The translations under genes were made by a program, and so were the position numbers. The notes beneath the pieces were generated by a model. It did no database searches, was not told the origin of the DNA, and saw only the letters and a list, made by a program, of their open reading frames with translations. From Candidatus Hennigella equi (GTDB taxonomy: Bacteria > Bacillota_I > Bacilli_A > Mycoplasmatales > Mycoplasmoidaceae), in the NCBI GenBank assembly GCA_018064845.1, contig JAGHUK010000045.1, positions 1-36,550 of the forward strand: a DNA stretch of 36,550 nt. The letters run 5' to 3'. Below are positions 2,327-19,101 of this stretch, piece by piece. Each line of letters starts with the position of its first letter. Position 1 is the stretch's first letter.

Positions 2327-3680
2327 CTAATATATAGCTTCTTAATTTCTTTGATTTTGATGGGTGTTTTAGTTTTCTTGTTGCTTTAGCTTCAATTTGT
2401 CTAACTTGCTCACGAGGAATTTTTAATTTTTCAGCAGCTTCATCAAGACTATGAACATATGTATATGGTGCTAAACCATATCTCATTCTCATAATTCTTT
2501 CTTCTTCTGGAGTTAGGGTTACTTTAAATAATTGGTTGATGTCTTCTTTTAATAAAGACTCTTTTGTATATTGAACCGGACTTGTTAAAACATCTTCTTT
2601 AACAAAGTCTGAGATTTGACTATCTTCATCTGATCCAACAGTTTTATCCAAAGATACTGGATCAATATGAATACGCTTAATGTTAGCAACTTTTCTAGTT
2701 GTAAATCCTGCAGCTTGTCCACCAAGTTCTTCAGTGATTTCTTCGATTGTTGGTTGACGACCTAATCTTTGTGTCAATTCTTTTTCTGCGTTTGTAACAC
2801 GGTGAATTGTTTCAATCATGTGAGCAGGAATACGAATAATCTTTGATTGATCAGAGATAGCTCTAGTGATAGCTTGTCTAATTCATCATGTTGCATAAGT
2901 TGAGAATTTATGACCAAGTTTATAGTCAAACTTAGTAATGGCTTTCATTAAGCCCATTGTTCCTTCTTGAATCAAATCTTCAAATTCAATTCCTCTGTTT
3001 AGGAATTTCTTAGCAATAGATGTAACAAGACGTAAGTTACTTGTTACCAATTGATCAACCGCGTATTTTCTTTCAATTTCATTTTTAGAACTTAATAGCT
3101 TAGCTATTTCAACTTCTTGTTCAGCAGAAAGCATCTTAGATTGACCAAGTGTTGTCAAGAATGATTTAACACCGTCATAGTCGTTTCCTTTTGGACCATG
3201 AGTAGTAATCTTACTTACTTTTTGTGATTTTTGTGTTGATAAAATTTTCTCTGCATCTTCTAGAGAGAAGTATTTTTTACCTTCAAAACCTTTGATTGTA
3301 ATACCTTGTTTTACAATGTCATTAAACAATCTTTGTGTTAATTCTTTACTTAGAGAATAACTTCCAAACTCAGAGAAGATTTTATTTAGAACAACAACAT
3401 TTCTACTACGTTTTTTAAGTTTAACAGTTTGAATTATTTTCTTTTCGATATCTTTAAATTCGAAATCAGAAATCATCTTATGTTTAGAATAAGATTCTAG
3501 AATTTGAATTTTAGGTTCAAATGTTTTAACTTGTTTAGGTTGTTTTACAACATTCTTTGTTGTTTTAACTTTTTTAGTAACTTTATTTTTTGTTACTTTT
3601 TTAGCTGTTTTTTTGACAGCAGATTTTTTAGTAGCTTTTTTCTTAGCTACCTTTTTTACTTTAACATTCTTTTTAGCCAT
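2313..3680 (-). CDS. rpoD: RNA polymerase primary sigma factor (sigma-70/SigA)
   Basis: A 455-aa primary sigma factor that directs RNA polymerase to -10/-35 promoters. Region 2 reads [20 protein letters not shown] then FSTYATWWIRQAI, where both Trp are TGA codons (2880-2885). Region 3 follows, and region 4.2 near the C-terminus reads [20 protein letters not shown] with [13 protein letters not shown]. The first ~50 residues are an unusual Lys-rich, histone-H1-like tail (repeats of AKK, VKK, TKK). I chose the ATG at 3678-3680 because an AAGGA site lies about 10 nt upstream and a TATAAT at 3706-3711 precedes it; a longer reading would start upstream of that promoter. It heads the rpoD-trmK-nif3 operon. 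Confidence 0.96.
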
Positions 3681-3705
3681 GGATGTATCAGTCCTTAGTG
3701 GTATT

Positions 3706-3711
3706 ATTATA
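3706..3711 (-). promoter_or_regulatory. -10 box of the rpoD-trmK-nif3 operon
   Basis: TATAAT on the minus strand, 25 nt before the rpoD ATG. The region 17 bp further upstream (TTACTT) is a poor -35 match and lies in the arm of the preceding terminator hairpin. An AAGGA ribosome site sits between box and start codon. Confidence 0.6.
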
Positions 3712-3723
3712 ACACTAACCATA

Positions 3724-3756
3724 TAAAAAAGTAAAAGTAATTTATTACTTTTACTT
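3724..3756 (-). terminator. Rho-independent terminator after the small membrane peptide gene
   Basis: A perfect 12-bp inverted repeat (3729-3740 and 3745-3756) with a 4-nt loop. Read on the minus strand, it is followed by a run of T. It closes the small peptide gene, whose stop is at 3784, and its downstream arm overlaps the -35 area of the rpoD promoter. Confidence 0.75.
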
Positions 3757-3783
3757 ATATATGCATGATTTAAATGAAAAAAT

Positions 3784-4029
3784 TTAGCCAATTAATGCGA
3801 TAGAACTTCTGCTAGGAACAGGAGATAAACGCATAATTGTAGTTCTTCTAAAACCGTAATTAGTATTTGAGGGAGTTTGATTGCCTTGGGCCATACTGAT
3901 TGCGTTCATAATTAAGCTTGACAATGTAGAAACGAGGATTCCAATTCCTAATGCAACGGCATAGAAAGCACCGCCACTATTAGTTTTCTTTTGTGTTAGC
4001 GTTAATTTTTTAATATATATCACCTCCAT
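3784..4029 (-). CDS. Small hydrophobic peptide with Gly-Gly-like leader, function unknown
   Basis: An 81-aa reading frame (from the ATG at 4027-4029) with one hydrophobic segment ([20 protein letters not shown], then [10 protein letters not shown]) and a polar C-terminus ending [16 protein letters not shown] Gly-Gly pair follows [12 protein letters not shown], loosely resembling the double-glycine leaders of exported peptides (Leu at -12, Thr at -11, Gln at -8), though the usual Leu at -7 is Lys. The start is unclear. The ATG lies inside a very strong Shine-Dalgarno (GGAGGTGAT), and the codons at ideal distance after it are ATA/ATT, giving IKKLTLTQ. A copy of the 38-bp repeat ends right at the start, and its own terminator follows, so it looks like a real monocistronic gene. 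I do not recognise the family. Confidence 0.6.
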
Positions 4030-4067
4030 ATATACCTTTACCTAACTATTAAAAAATTTAGGAAAAT
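4030..4067 (-). repeat. 38-bp conserved intergenic element, copy 1 (before the small peptide gene)
   Basis: Plus-strand ends are ATATACCTTTACC and AAAAATTTAGGAAAAT, separated by a 9-bp less conserved core. Read towards the gene (minus strand) it ends in TAAAGGTATAT directly before the ATG, so it carries a possible ribosome site. The arms CCTAA/TTAGG can form a short hairpin. Two further copies of exactly the same length occur at 8951-8988 and 24000-24037. Confidence 0.85.
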
Positions 4068-4153
4068 ATTTTTTGCTATTTGTTATTAAGCCTATTAAAA
4101 TCTAGCATTTTGTCGAAATTGTTTTTTAAAATTTTTGCATAAAATTAGAAAGT

Positions 4154-4174
4154 TTTAATAATGTAATTATTAAA
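4154..4174. promoter_or_regulatory. Inverted repeat in the ackA promoter (possible operator)
   Basis: TTTAATAAT, 3-nt spacer, ATTATTAAA: a perfect 9-bp inverted repeat that fills the space just upstream of the -10 box at 4178-4183. The position suits a repressor operator. Its A/T-only composition means chance cannot be excluded in this genome. Confidence 0.35.
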
Positions 4175-4177
4175 GTT

Positions 4178-4183
4178 TATAAT
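4178..4183 (+). promoter_or_regulatory. -10 box of ackA
   Basis: TATAAT 25 nt before the ackA ATG. An AAAGGA ribosome site follows at about 4197-4202. No convincing -35 is visible; the 17-bp position reads TTTAAT. Confidence 0.6.
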
Positions 4184-4208
4184 TGAAAGTATTAAGTAAA
4201 GGATTATT

Positions 4209-5393
4209 ATGAACAAGAAAATTCTCGTTATTAACGCAGGTTCAAGCTCTATTAAATTTAGAGTTTACAACTATGAAGATTTAAATGAATTAGGAAGTGG
4301 TTTATGTGAAAGAATCTTTGTTGATGGTCACATAAAAGTTAAAACAGCTCAAGGTAAAGAACTTGAAAAAGATGCAGCAATGCCAGATCATACTGCAGCT
4401 GTACAAATTGCCTTAGACGCATTAAAAGAATTAAAGATTATTGAAGATCTAAATGATATTGCAGGTATTGGTCACCGTATTGCAATGGGTGGTCAATTCT
4501 TTAAAGAATCAACAAGAGTTGATGATGAAAAGATTTTAAACAAGGCAATTGAATATGGAAAGATTGCTCCATTACACAACCCTTGTGAAACTACAGTTAT
4601 CAAAGTCTTTAAGAAATTAGTTCCAAATGCATTTAACGTTGGTGTATTCGATACATCATACCATTCAACAATTCCAGCTGTTAACTCTGACTATTGTTTA
4701 GACAGAGAAACAACTAGAAAATATGAAATTAAGAAATATGGTTTCCATGGTACTAGCTACAGATATATAGCTAAGAAGATGGAAGAAGTATTGGGGAAGA
4801 AAAACCCTAACTTAATTGTTTGCCACATTGGTAATGGTGCATCAATTTGTGCTATTAAAGAAGGCAAATCATATGACACAACTATGGGTTTAAGCCCATT
4901 ACAAGGTTTAATCATGGGAACAAGATGTGGTGATATTGATGCTTCAGTATGTACATATCTATTAACTCAAGGATTAACTGGAGACCAAGTTAATGCTGAA
5001 TTAAATAAGAAGGCAGGAATGCTTGGATTAGCTGGTTCAAGTGACTCAAGAGATGTTATTGCTAAAGCAAATGCAGGTGATGCAAATGCAAAATTAGCAA
5101 GAGAAATTCAATTGCAAAGAATTGCTAACTATGTAATTCAATATGCAAATGAATTAGGCAAAGTAGATGCCATTGTCTTTACTGCTGGTTGCGGAGAAAA
5201 TGACCCACTATTACTAGAAGGTGTTTGTGATCGTGTTAAATTGATGAATCTTAAATATGATGCAAACAAGAATAAACAAAAATATGGTGACTATCTAGAA
5301 GTTACTGCATCTGGTTCAGACACAAGAATCTTTAGAGTAAGAACAAACGAAGAGCTAATGATTGCAGGCGATGTTAAAGCGTTAGCAAAATAA
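4209..5393 (+). CDS. ackA: Acetate kinase
   Basis: A 394-aa acetate kinase (acetyl phosphate + ADP to acetate + ATP), a main substrate-level ATP source in fermenting mycoplasmas. Family motifs in order: VINAGSSSIKF at the N-terminus, GHRIAMGG, VFDTSYHSTIP, YGFHGTSYRYIA, VCHIGNGASICAI, the MGLSPLQGLIMGTRCGDID block, and IVFTAGCGEND near the C-terminus (the usual GIGEN is GCGEN here). Length is normal and the whole frame is intact. The start has a clear AAAGGA site. The usual partner pta is not adjacent; ackA has its own promoter and terminator and seems monocistronic. Confidence 0.98.
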   Translation: MNKKILVINAGSSSIKFRVYNYEDLNELGSGLCERIFVDGHIKVKTAQGKELEKDAAMPDHTAAVQIALDALKELKIIEDLNDIAGIGHRIAMGGQFFKESTRVDDEKILNKAIEYGKIAPLHNPCETTVIKVFKKLVPNAFNVGVFDTSYHSTIPAVNSDYCLDRETTRKYEIKKYGFHGTSYRYIAKKMEEVLGKKNPNLIVCHIGNGASICAIKEGKSYDTTMGLSPLQGLIMGTRCGDIDASVCTYLLTQGLTGDQVNAELNKKAGMLGLAGSSDSRDVIAKANAGDANAKLAREIQLQRIANYVIQYANELGKVDAIVFTAGCGENDPLLLEGVCDRVKLMNLKYDANKNKQKYGDYLEVTASGSDTRIFRVRTNEELMIAGDVKALAK

Positions 5394-16057: not shown

Positions 16058-16663
16058 ATGAAGTTTGATTATTATCGGAAAAGAAGAATTATTGTCCCAT
16101 ACAGTAAGTTAACTAAGGAAATCAAGAGAATTGCAAAGCAACTCGACCATGATTACAAAGATAAACATCCAGTCATAGTTGGACTAATGAACAGTAGCTT
16201 TATGTTCCTTGCGGAACTAATGCTAAACATGAAGTGTGATGTCGAAATTGAATTTGTTAAAGTCTTTACTTATTCTAAATTAAGAGAAGAAAAAATAGAT
16301 GCGCAAAGAATTCAACAAGCATTCGATTGGGAGCGTCTAAAGAATCGTAATGTTATCATCGTAGATGAATTGATTGATACAGGCGATAGCTTTCAGTTCA
16401 TGGTTAAGGAACTTAAAAGGCGTTCCAAACCAAAGTCAATTGCTACATGTGCGATGATTGAAAAAGATTGGCCAAGACCATATTTCAAACAAAAAGTTGA
16501 TTATGTGGGTGTAAAAGTACCAAACCTTTGGATAACTGGACATGGTATGGCATATAAATATAAATACCGTAATTTAAAGGACGTAGTAGCACTATCAGAT
16601 GCAGAGAAAGGATTTAATAAATATGAAGCTAGAAACAAGAAAGTTCATAAAAAAGCAAATTAA
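16058..16663 (+). CDS. hpt: Hypoxanthine(-guanine) phosphoribosyltransferase
   Basis: A 201-aa type I purine phosphoribosyltransferase joining PRPP with hypoxanthine (and often guanine) to give IMP/GMP. The PRPP loop reads NVIIVDELIDTGDSF, a slight variant of the usual VEDIIDTG. The substrate-exclusion region VGLMNSSFMFLAEL comes earlier, and VDYVGVKVPNLWITGHGMAYKYKYRNL gives the base-specificity region near the C-terminus. A basic tail (NKKVHKKAN) extends beyond the family core and overlaps guaA by 41 nt. A TATAGGA ribosome site precedes the ATG. Its position before guaA and opposite guaB fits the route hypoxanthine to IMP to XMP to GMP. Confidence 0.92.
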   Translation: MKFDYYRKRRIIVPYSKLTKEIKRIAKQLDHDYKDKHPVIVGLMNSSFMFLAELMLNMKCDVEIEFVKVFTYSKLREEKIDAQRIQQAFDWERLKNRNVIIVDELIDTGDSFQFMVKELKRRSKPKSIATCAMIEKDWPRPYFKQKVDYVGVKVPNLWITGHGMAYKYKYRNLKDVVALSDAEKGFNKYEARNKKVHKKAN

Positions 16664-17579
16664 AGAAATAAGAGAACAAGTAGGTAATGACAAAGTCATT
16701 TGCGCTTTGTCAGGTGGAGTGGACTCAGCTGTAACAGCTGCCTTAGTTCACAAAGCTATAGGTAAACAATTAACTTGTGTCTTTGTTGACACAGGTTTAA
16801 TGAGAAAGGATGAAGGAAAGCAAGTCCAAGCAAACTTTAAAAAAGCCTTCCCATCTATTAACTTTAAGTATATAGATGCTCATACAATTTTCTTTAACAA
16901 CCTAAAAGGAATAACAGACCCAGAAGCAAAAAGAAAGTGTATTGGTAGAACATTTATTGAAGTGTTCAAACAAAGCGCACAAAGTATTAAAGGATTAAAG
17001 TTCTTAGCACAAGGAACAATTTACCCAGACATTGTTGAATCTAAAACAAAAGCTGGTAATGTTATTAAATCACACCACAACGTTGGTGGATTGCCAAAAG
17101 ATCTAAACCTAGGTTTAGTTGAACCACTTAAGAGTTTATATAAACCTCAAGTTAGATTGGTTGGTAGAAGATTAGGCTTGCCAAAACAAATGCTTGCTCG
17201 TCAACCATTCCCAGGCCCAGGTTTGGGTGTAAGAGTAATTGGAGAACTAACTCCATCTAAAGTAAAACTTCTACAAGAAGCTGACGCAATCGTTAGAGAT
17301 GAAATTGATAAATCATCTCACCGCAAACACTTATGACAATACTTTGCAGTTTTGCCAAATGTAAAGTCAACTGGTGTTAAAGCTGGACAACGTTTATATG
17401 GGCATCTAATAGTAATTAGAGCAGTGCAATCTAAGGATGCAATGTCTGCTAAATTTGCTCAACTACCATATACAATGTTAGCAAAAATATCAAAACGTAT
17501 TACTGATGAAGTAATTGGTATTAACAGAGTAGCTTATGATATTACATCTAAGCCACCTGGTACAATTGAATGAGAATAA
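16623..17579 (+). CDS. guaA: GMP synthase, ATP-pyrophosphatase subunit only (no glutaminase domain)
   Basis: A 318-aa protein that starts directly at the ATP-pyrophosphatase domain: the P-loop SGGVDS is at residues 30-35. The substrate and dimerisation regions follow ([16 protein letters not shown]) and it ends in the canonical KPPGTIEWE. Ordinary bacterial GuaA is about 510-525 aa with an N-terminal class I glutamine amidotransferase; that domain is missing here and is not encoded upstream. The enzyme should convert XMP + ATP + NH3 to GMP using free ammonia, or use a separate glutaminase as in archaea. The start at 16623 has AAAGGA nine nt upstream, inside the end of hpt (41-nt overlap). It is convergent with guaB across a shared terminator. 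Not a truncation artefact: no remnant of a glutaminase precedes it. Confidence 0.95.
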
Positions 17580-17580
17580 A

Positions 17581-17608
17581 AAAATAAGAGCTGAAAGGCT
17601 CTTATTTT
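17581..17608. terminator. Bidirectional terminator between guaA and guaB
   Basis: A perfect 11-bp stem, AAAATAAGAGC with GCTCTTATTTT, around the 6-nt loop TGAAAG. It serves hpt-guaA on plus and guaB on minus; the guaB stop (17602-17604) lies inside one arm. Confidence 0.88.
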
Positions 17609-19101
17609 ACATTTACTTTGTCTTTTAAGACAACGTCGTGTGCTCCACCTTCAATAATTGAAGTAGAACTTGCAAGAGTTAATGTTGCATTCTTTTGTAA
17701 GTCTTTAATTGATAAAGCACCACAGTTGCACATTGTTGATTTAACTTTTTCTAAAGTTAATCTTACGTTATCACTTAAACATCCAGCATATGGAACGTAG
17801 CTATCAACACCTTCTTCGAATTTAAGTTTAGCATCGCCACCTAAATCGTATCTTTGTCAGTTTCTAGCTCTAGCCGAACCTTCACCTCAATATTCTTTAT
17901 AGAATGTTCCATTGATATTTACCTTGTTGCTTGGTGATTCATCAAATCTAGCGAAGTATCTACCTAGCATTACAAAGTCAGCACCCATTGCTAAAGCAAG
18001 AGTAATGTGGTGATCTAAAACAATACCACCATCTGAACATACTGGTACATAGTGACCTGTTTCTTTTAAGTATTTATCACGTTCTGTGCAAACATCAATA
18101 ACTGCTGTTGCTTGTCCACGACCAATTCCTTTTGTTTCTCTTGTAATACAGATTGATCCACCACCAATACCAACTTTAATAAAGTCAGCACCAGCTTTAG
18201 CTAAGAATCTAAATCCTTTACCATCAACTACGTTGCCCGCACCTACTGGTAGAGTTGGGTAATGTTTCTTAATTCATTTAATAGCATCTGCTTGTCATTG
18301 TGTGAAACCATCAGAGCTATCAAGACAAACTACATCTACTCCAGCTTTTACTAAAGCAGGAACACGTTCTTGATAGTCTCTAGTGTTGATACCAGCACCA
18401 ACAATATATCTTTTCTTTTCATCCAATAATTCATTTGGATATAGTTCATGTTCATCATAGTCTTTTCTAAAGACTAGGTATTTTAAATTACCATTTTTGT
18501 CTAAAATAGGTAATTGATTAACTTTGTTTTCTCAGATGATGTCATTTGCTCTTTCTAAAGAAATTCCATCACGAGCAACAACTAAGTTCTTTAAAGGTGT
18601 CATGAATGATTTAACCTTTGTAGTTAAAGGTAAACGGTTTGGACGGTAATCTTTTGAAGTAACTAAACCTAAAAGTTTGCCGTGATTTGTTCCATCAGAA
18701 GTAATCGCAATTGTTTCATGGTTGGTTCTTTGCTTTAAAGCAATTACATCAGCTAATGTAGCAGTTTCTTTTAAGTTAGAGTCACTAATAACAAAACCTG
18801 CTTTTTGAGCTTTAACATTTTTAACCATCTTTGCTTCGTTTTCAATAGATTGAGCACCAAAGATAAATGTTACACCACCTTCTTTAGCTAAAGCTACTGC
18901 TAGCTTATCGCCAGAAACTGATTGCATAATAGCACTAACCATTGGAATGTTCATTTGAATTCTTGGTTTAGAGCCCTTTTTGAATTTAGTTAAAGGAGTT
19001 TTTAAACTCACTTTATTTGGAATGTGTTCAGCTCCACTATAGTCAGGAATTAATAAGTATTCATTGAATGTGTGAGCTTCATCTTTTAAGATCTTTGCCA
19101 T
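17602..19101 (-). CDS. guaB: IMP dehydrogenase, trichomonad-like type
   Basis: A 499-aa IMP dehydrogenase (IMP + NAD+ to XMP + NADH), the branch step to guanine nucleotides. A catalytic (beta/alpha)8 barrel holds an inserted CBS pair at about residues 95-215. The active-site loop is [19 protein letters not shown] with catalytic Cys318; the mobile flap has RNWQRYDLGG with Arg417-Tyr418. Most bacterial enzymes instead have GIGPGSICTTR and a different flap. The whole C-terminal half ([54 protein letters not shown]) closely follows the Tritrichomonas foetus IMPDH as I remember it, where the same residues are Cys319 and Arg418-Tyr419. AGAGG precedes the ATG. Function is secure; origin is open. Confidence 0.96.

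Follow-up and report, generated by a model that had tools for sequence, protein, structure and literature searches.

A PRK07107-type IMP dehydrogenase gene in Candidatus Hennigella equi, probably acquired from a gut bacterium

We analysed a stretch of 36,550 nucleotides (the window; 31.6% GC) from the draft assembly of Candidatus Hennigella equi, which comprises 636,159 bases in 46 contigs and has an estimated completeness of 82.3%. An earlier note had placed an IMP dehydrogenase (IMPDH) at positions 17602–19101 without giving a strand. Exactly one open reading frame in the ORF list of the window fits these coordinates; it runs on the minus strand from 19101 down to 17602 and is complete, with 499 amino acids under genetic code 4 and five TGA codons read as tryptophan. 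The plus-strand reading of the same interval is interrupted by many stops. The gene, guaB, encodes an IMPDH of the PRK07107 type with a CBS (Bateman) insert. Since all its tryptophans are encoded by TGA (five TGA, no TGG) and its GC3 of 0.184 lies inside the range of the 14 other window genes measured (0.154–0.282), guaB is adapted to code 4 and at home in a genome with the mycoplasma code.

The guaB product matches the NCBIfam model NF005493 (PRK07107) over its full length, scoring 887.2 bits where the cut-off is 585, with residues 1–497 aligned to positions 1–498 of the 502-position profile, and is thus a member of this bacterial IMPDH family; the only difference from the family that we found is the code 4 host. 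It shares the Pfam IMPDH domain (PF00478) with canonical bacterial GuaB but scores too low for the canonical model TIGR01302 (365.5 bits, cut-off 481.5), and it has a CBS domain (PF00571) at residues 163–214. A second, weaker match to the PF00478 family is present in the same genome (L002, G000:C9:13092-13562; 105.3 bits, over the cut-off).

The best match in the PDB is the Tritrichomonas foetus IMPDH (1ak5, E 7.7e-226). The second-best relative there is Listeria Lmo0132 (8ebc, a CBS-less construct; 588.4 bits), which like the window enzyme is of the PRK07107 type but lies outside its clade, and CBS-less constructs of the T. foetus enzyme score 573.0 and 572.0 bits. The window and T. foetus proteins are 66.1% identical over 498 amino acids and 77.3% identical over residues 300–499, in agreement with the resemblance in loop, flap and C-terminal blocks described in the earlier note. 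The catalytic loop (residues 313–322, with Cys318 and Thr320) maps to 18136–18165 and the flap RNWQRYDLGG (residues 413–422, with Arg417-Tyr418) to 17836–17865, both on the minus strand and with coordinates confirmed by translation. Alignment bears out the suggested offset of one from the protozoal numbering: Cys318, Arg417 and Tyr418 correspond to Cys319, Arg418 and Tyr419 of T. foetus. In the latter enzyme the catalytic cysteine forms a covalent intermediate and an Arg-Tyr pair belongs to the hydrolytic flap, according to the available part of PMC2525682. Since the catalytic residues known from T. foetus (Cys318, Thr320, Arg417, Tyr418 and Glu430; window numbering) are all conserved, the window enzyme very probably uses the same mechanism, in which IMP would be oxidized to XMP with NAD+ via Cys318 and the covalent intermediate would be hydrolysed by the Arg417-Tyr418 flap.

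To the earlier note these features indicated an IMPDH of trichomonad type. We compared 143 PRK07107-type sequences: those of the window, T. foetus and Listeria, and 140 from bacterial loci. They had been selected for resemblance to the window protein, the T. foetus enzyme or the family model, and the motif counts describe that sample. The loop form of the window (RETKGIG) occurs in 64 of them and that of T. foetus (REQKGIG) in another 64; a third form is found in four, six have other variants and five do not match the pattern. The flap reads RNWQRYDLGG in 89 sequences and RNWQRYDMGG in 37, the rest having other forms or no match. Loop and flap are therefore not a trichomonad signature; they are usual in the PRK07107 family of bacteria. 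The remark that canonical GuaB has another loop holds for the canonical proteins of related mycoplasmas: six of nine match the loop pattern, each with G[IV]GPGSICTTR and thus unlike the window, three do not match it, and none of the nine matches the flap pattern.

Next to guaB and convergent with it lies guaA (16599–17579, plus strand), which encodes a GMP synthetase of 326 amino acids, or somewhat fewer if translation starts at ATG 16623 (TIGR00884, 459.8 bits). Its 5' end is overlapped by an hpt-like phosphoribosyltransferase gene (16058–16663, plus strand, 201 amino acids) with 62.2 bits for PF00156 and 114.3 bits for TIGR01203, under the cut-off of 150. Between the convergent genes, at 17583–17606 and overlapping the guaB stop, we read a perfect 9-base inverted repeat, AATAAGAGC...GCTCTTATT, which is perhaps a shared terminator of guaA and guaB.

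GuaA consists of the ATP-pyrophosphatase and dimerization parts, which it shares with two-domain bacterial GuaA and the archaeal two-subunit enzyme, and covers positions 192–512 of PRK00074 (512 positions). The N-terminal glutamine amidotransferase (GATase) domain of the two-domain enzyme is absent, and only three codons separate the upstream stop from the start of the ORF. A separate GATase subunit, as in the archaeal two-subunit GMP synthetase, is not detected either: PF00117 has no match in the draft genome, where the incomplete assembly could hide one, and matches in all 14 control genomes. The lack of a glutaminase domain is thus well supported and suggests that GMP synthesis in this mycoplasma is ammonia-dependent. 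In such a route the phosphoribosyltransferase would convert hypoxanthine, its presumed substrate, to IMP, and the short GuaA would complete the path by converting XMP to GMP with free ammonia. Five congeners, with genomes 60–86% complete, have no GuaA match over the cut-off. Short GuaA is not a common feature of mycoplasmas; frames of about 315 amino acids elsewhere are an artefact of reading TGA as stop, and under code 4 the GATase domain lies in the same frame as guaA in all 36 other mycoplasma loci (27 genomes by hand count, some with two loci).

PRK07107 IMPDHs are also known from Listeria, many Clostridia and Bacilli, a spirochaete and Actinomycetota. A similarity scan of genome contigs gave 354 relatives, of which the best 80 were kept. 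Most of these belong to Bacillota, but a single spirochaete (L068) and three members of Actinomycetota (L057, L065 and L083) are among them; tryptophans in the search patterns were presumably back-translated by the standard code, and code 4 genomes may be under-sampled there. Within the best 80, the closest sequences come from four metagenome-assembled genomes (MAGs) of Bacilli from horse faeces (77–80% identity to the window), followed by goat and rumen Erysipelotrichaceae and Clostridia with at most 73%. Read with the standard code (table 11), the genes of the four horse-faeces MAGs have open frames, and at two of these loci (L005 and L006) the neighbouring genes differ from those of the window. 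A plasmid collection yields 12 matching records, with 46.6–67.4% identity among the ten matches listed: three each in Embleya and Streptomyces, two in Listeria and one each in Subdoligranulum, Monoglobus, Parabacteroides and Mycolicibacterium.

A first tree (FastTree) of 152 sequences, the 143 of PRK07107 type and the nine canonical mycoplasma GuaBs, splits the two sets with a support of 100, the canonical sequences forming long branches. The window groups with the four horse-faeces Bacilli with a support of only 84, T. foetus being placed elsewhere; a quick tree of 79 sequences recovers the same grouping with a support of 99. For a careful tree, 60 of the 152 sequences were hand-picked across the FastTree groups and the canonical outgroup was left out. 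Here, the window and the four horse-faeces MAGs form a clade with 100/100 support, which is nested in sets of 12 (98/97) and 16 sequences (99/91), both without T. foetus.

In the mycoplasma's own family only one of 95 genomes, its own, exceeds the NF005493 cut-off, and guaB was therefore probably acquired from a gut bacterium. We hold with considerable confidence that it encodes an ordinary PRK07107 IMPDH, probably active, that the mycoplasma gained from such a bacterium and that was later adapted to the mycoplasma code. The donor would have been an anaerobe of the gut with relatives among certain uncultured Bacilli, and the adjustment of the gene, with TGA for all five tryptophans, would have followed the transfer; its direction and time, like the enzymatic activity, are what we infer. 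The gene-transfer idea of the earlier note thus stands as far as lateral acquisition by the mycoplasma is concerned, and its trichomonad link does not.

It is possible, at somewhat less than even chance, that guaB did not come alone and that the short guaA arrived with it as one module from a donor among gut Bacilli or Clostridia, which would be an addition to the account above. Sixteen further short GuaAs occur in gut Bacilli and Clostridia (duplicates of L008 counted once), including all four horse-faeces genomes. For a GuaA tree we left out 18 of 66 loci (window copies, second gene copies and partial genes, including L047, which is short, and L199, which is cut at the edge) and added the window again as one row. 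The window, itself a long branch, is set apart together with 15 of the 16 short GuaAs by a branch with 96/91 support (16 rows), which speaks for a joint arrival. A guaA is present in the fetched flank of 23 of 151 guaB loci, window copies and duplicates counted, and most loci lack one. With duplicates counted once, 18 distinct non-window loci combine a PRK07107-type guaB with guaA, which is short in 11, nine of these being closely alike, and two-domain in seven. In a MAG of Erysipelotrichaceae from goat omasum (L008, 1501–5473), a permease-like gene (by reading of the sequence), a PRK07107 guaB and a short guaA stand in tandem, the last two sharing 8 bases; this genome has a second match in a frame of 525 amino acids. 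Against a joint arrival stands the arrangement in the window, where the two genes are convergent and not in tandem, and none of the four horse-faeces loci has guaA in its fetched flank. Compared with seven genomes that have a short GuaA, the window guaA is 52–58% identical and guaB 69–80%. Since guaA is far more distant than guaB in three horse-faeces genomes (55–56% versus 77–80%), a single co-transfer is doubtful, and placing the window guaA with the mycoplasma GuaAs of its family is compatible with the data (p = 0.25 and 0.233).

Vertical descent of guaB from a mycoplasma ancestor that had a PRK07107 IMPDH, with loss in the other sampled relatives, is improbable. It would fit with the wider presence of the family in the phylum of the window, where 57 of 392 sampled genomes exceed the NF005493 cut-off, its own included (control genomes, 0 of 14), and with the label Bacilli on the nearest relatives. 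Against it, 94 of the 95 genomes of the mycoplasma's own family stay under that cut-off, and those relatives that have a full-length IMPDH in this search score only 202–260 bits, far under 585. In the five congeners the PRK07107 model has no match at E ≤ 0.001, and canonical IMPDH-family proteins of other relatives are detected in the same search; these absences are soft, as the congeners are 60–86% complete and the genome itself is a draft. Since the neighbouring helicase is matched in only two of the five congeners, at 31–32% identity, synteny could not be used.

In all comparisons T. foetus is the single trichomonad sequence. In the 60-sequence tree it lies among clostridial sequences, where its exact position lacks resolution, and it is closer to several of these (up to 73.6% identity) than to the window. 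In the phylum of one clostridial relative, 47 of 398 genomes match the T. foetus enzyme at E 1e-180 or better, with at most 74% identity. The T. foetus IMPDH, which differs from the window enzyme in its REQKGIG loop, thus appears to be an independent member of the PRK07107 family with a separate place amid clostridial sequences. The available part of PMC3469657 holds nothing on point about lateral transfer of this gene. Forcing the window and T. foetus into a sister pair costs 70 log units and is rejected by the AU test (p = 0.0018), whereas a looser clade of the window, the four horse-faeces Bacilli and T. foetus costs 33 log units and is only marginally disfavoured (p = 0.0563). A bacterial donor shared by both, as the earlier note also considered, holds only in the loose sense of common membership in one bacterial family.

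One mycoplasma associated with a trichomonad is Candidatus Mycoplasma girerdii. Pyruvate:ferredoxin oxidoreductase (PFOR), described for Ca. M. girerdii in the available part of PMC5476646, is found in all six genomes of the genus (own copy L225, G000:C31:6736-10215) and in five others of 59 searched. The GC content is 28.6% in Ca. M. girerdii and 28.8% in Ca. M. trichamica (PMC10557491, available part), compared with 31.6% in the window, and Ca. M. girerdii lacks purine synthesis enzymes, as far as the available part of PMC9239101 goes. Nothing in our results ties Candidatus Hennigella equi to a trichomonad. That the gene passed directly from a trichomonad host to the mycoplasma, or the other way round, is very improbable: the identity of window and T. 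foetus IMPDH and the presence of PFOR throughout the genus speak for it, but many bacterial sequences are closer to the window and to T. foetus than either is to the other, the window groups with horse-faeces Bacilli, and five of the 11 PFOR-positive relatives lie outside the genus.

Acquisition from a gut bacterium, our preferred reading, may have a parallel in another family of the same order. The genome G464 (L183, G464:C1:362000-368000, 2509–5221) encodes a PRK07107 IMPDH without CBS insert (385 amino acids under code 4) and, directly after it, a guaA with both domains, and the locus adjoins ORFs that by reading of their sequences resemble a tyrosine recombinase and HsdS. Its guaA groups with Anaerovoracaceae-type Clostridia (100/99), and its guaB does likewise on a long branch and less firmly (92/80). 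G464 apparently represents a second, independent acquisition of PRK07107 by a mycoplasma.

Our analysis corrects a tempting inference: what looked like a trichomonad IMPDH signature is usual in a bacterial IMPDH family that is widespread among gut Bacillota and includes the much-studied T. foetus enzyme. The latter looks like one of several separate gene uptakes, beside probably two in mycoplasmas. Since in bacteria and eukaryotes both GMP synthetase domains reside on one chain, as stated in the available part of PMC9312489, the GuaA without glutaminase offers a modest lead that can be tested. More speculatively, and on our estimate rather unlikely as a whole, a PRK07107 IMPDH and an ammonia-using GMP synthetase without glutaminase might constitute a minimal module with which gut anaerobes make guanine nucleotides; having passed into wall-less bacteria, it would free the mycoplasma from glutamine for GMP synthesis.
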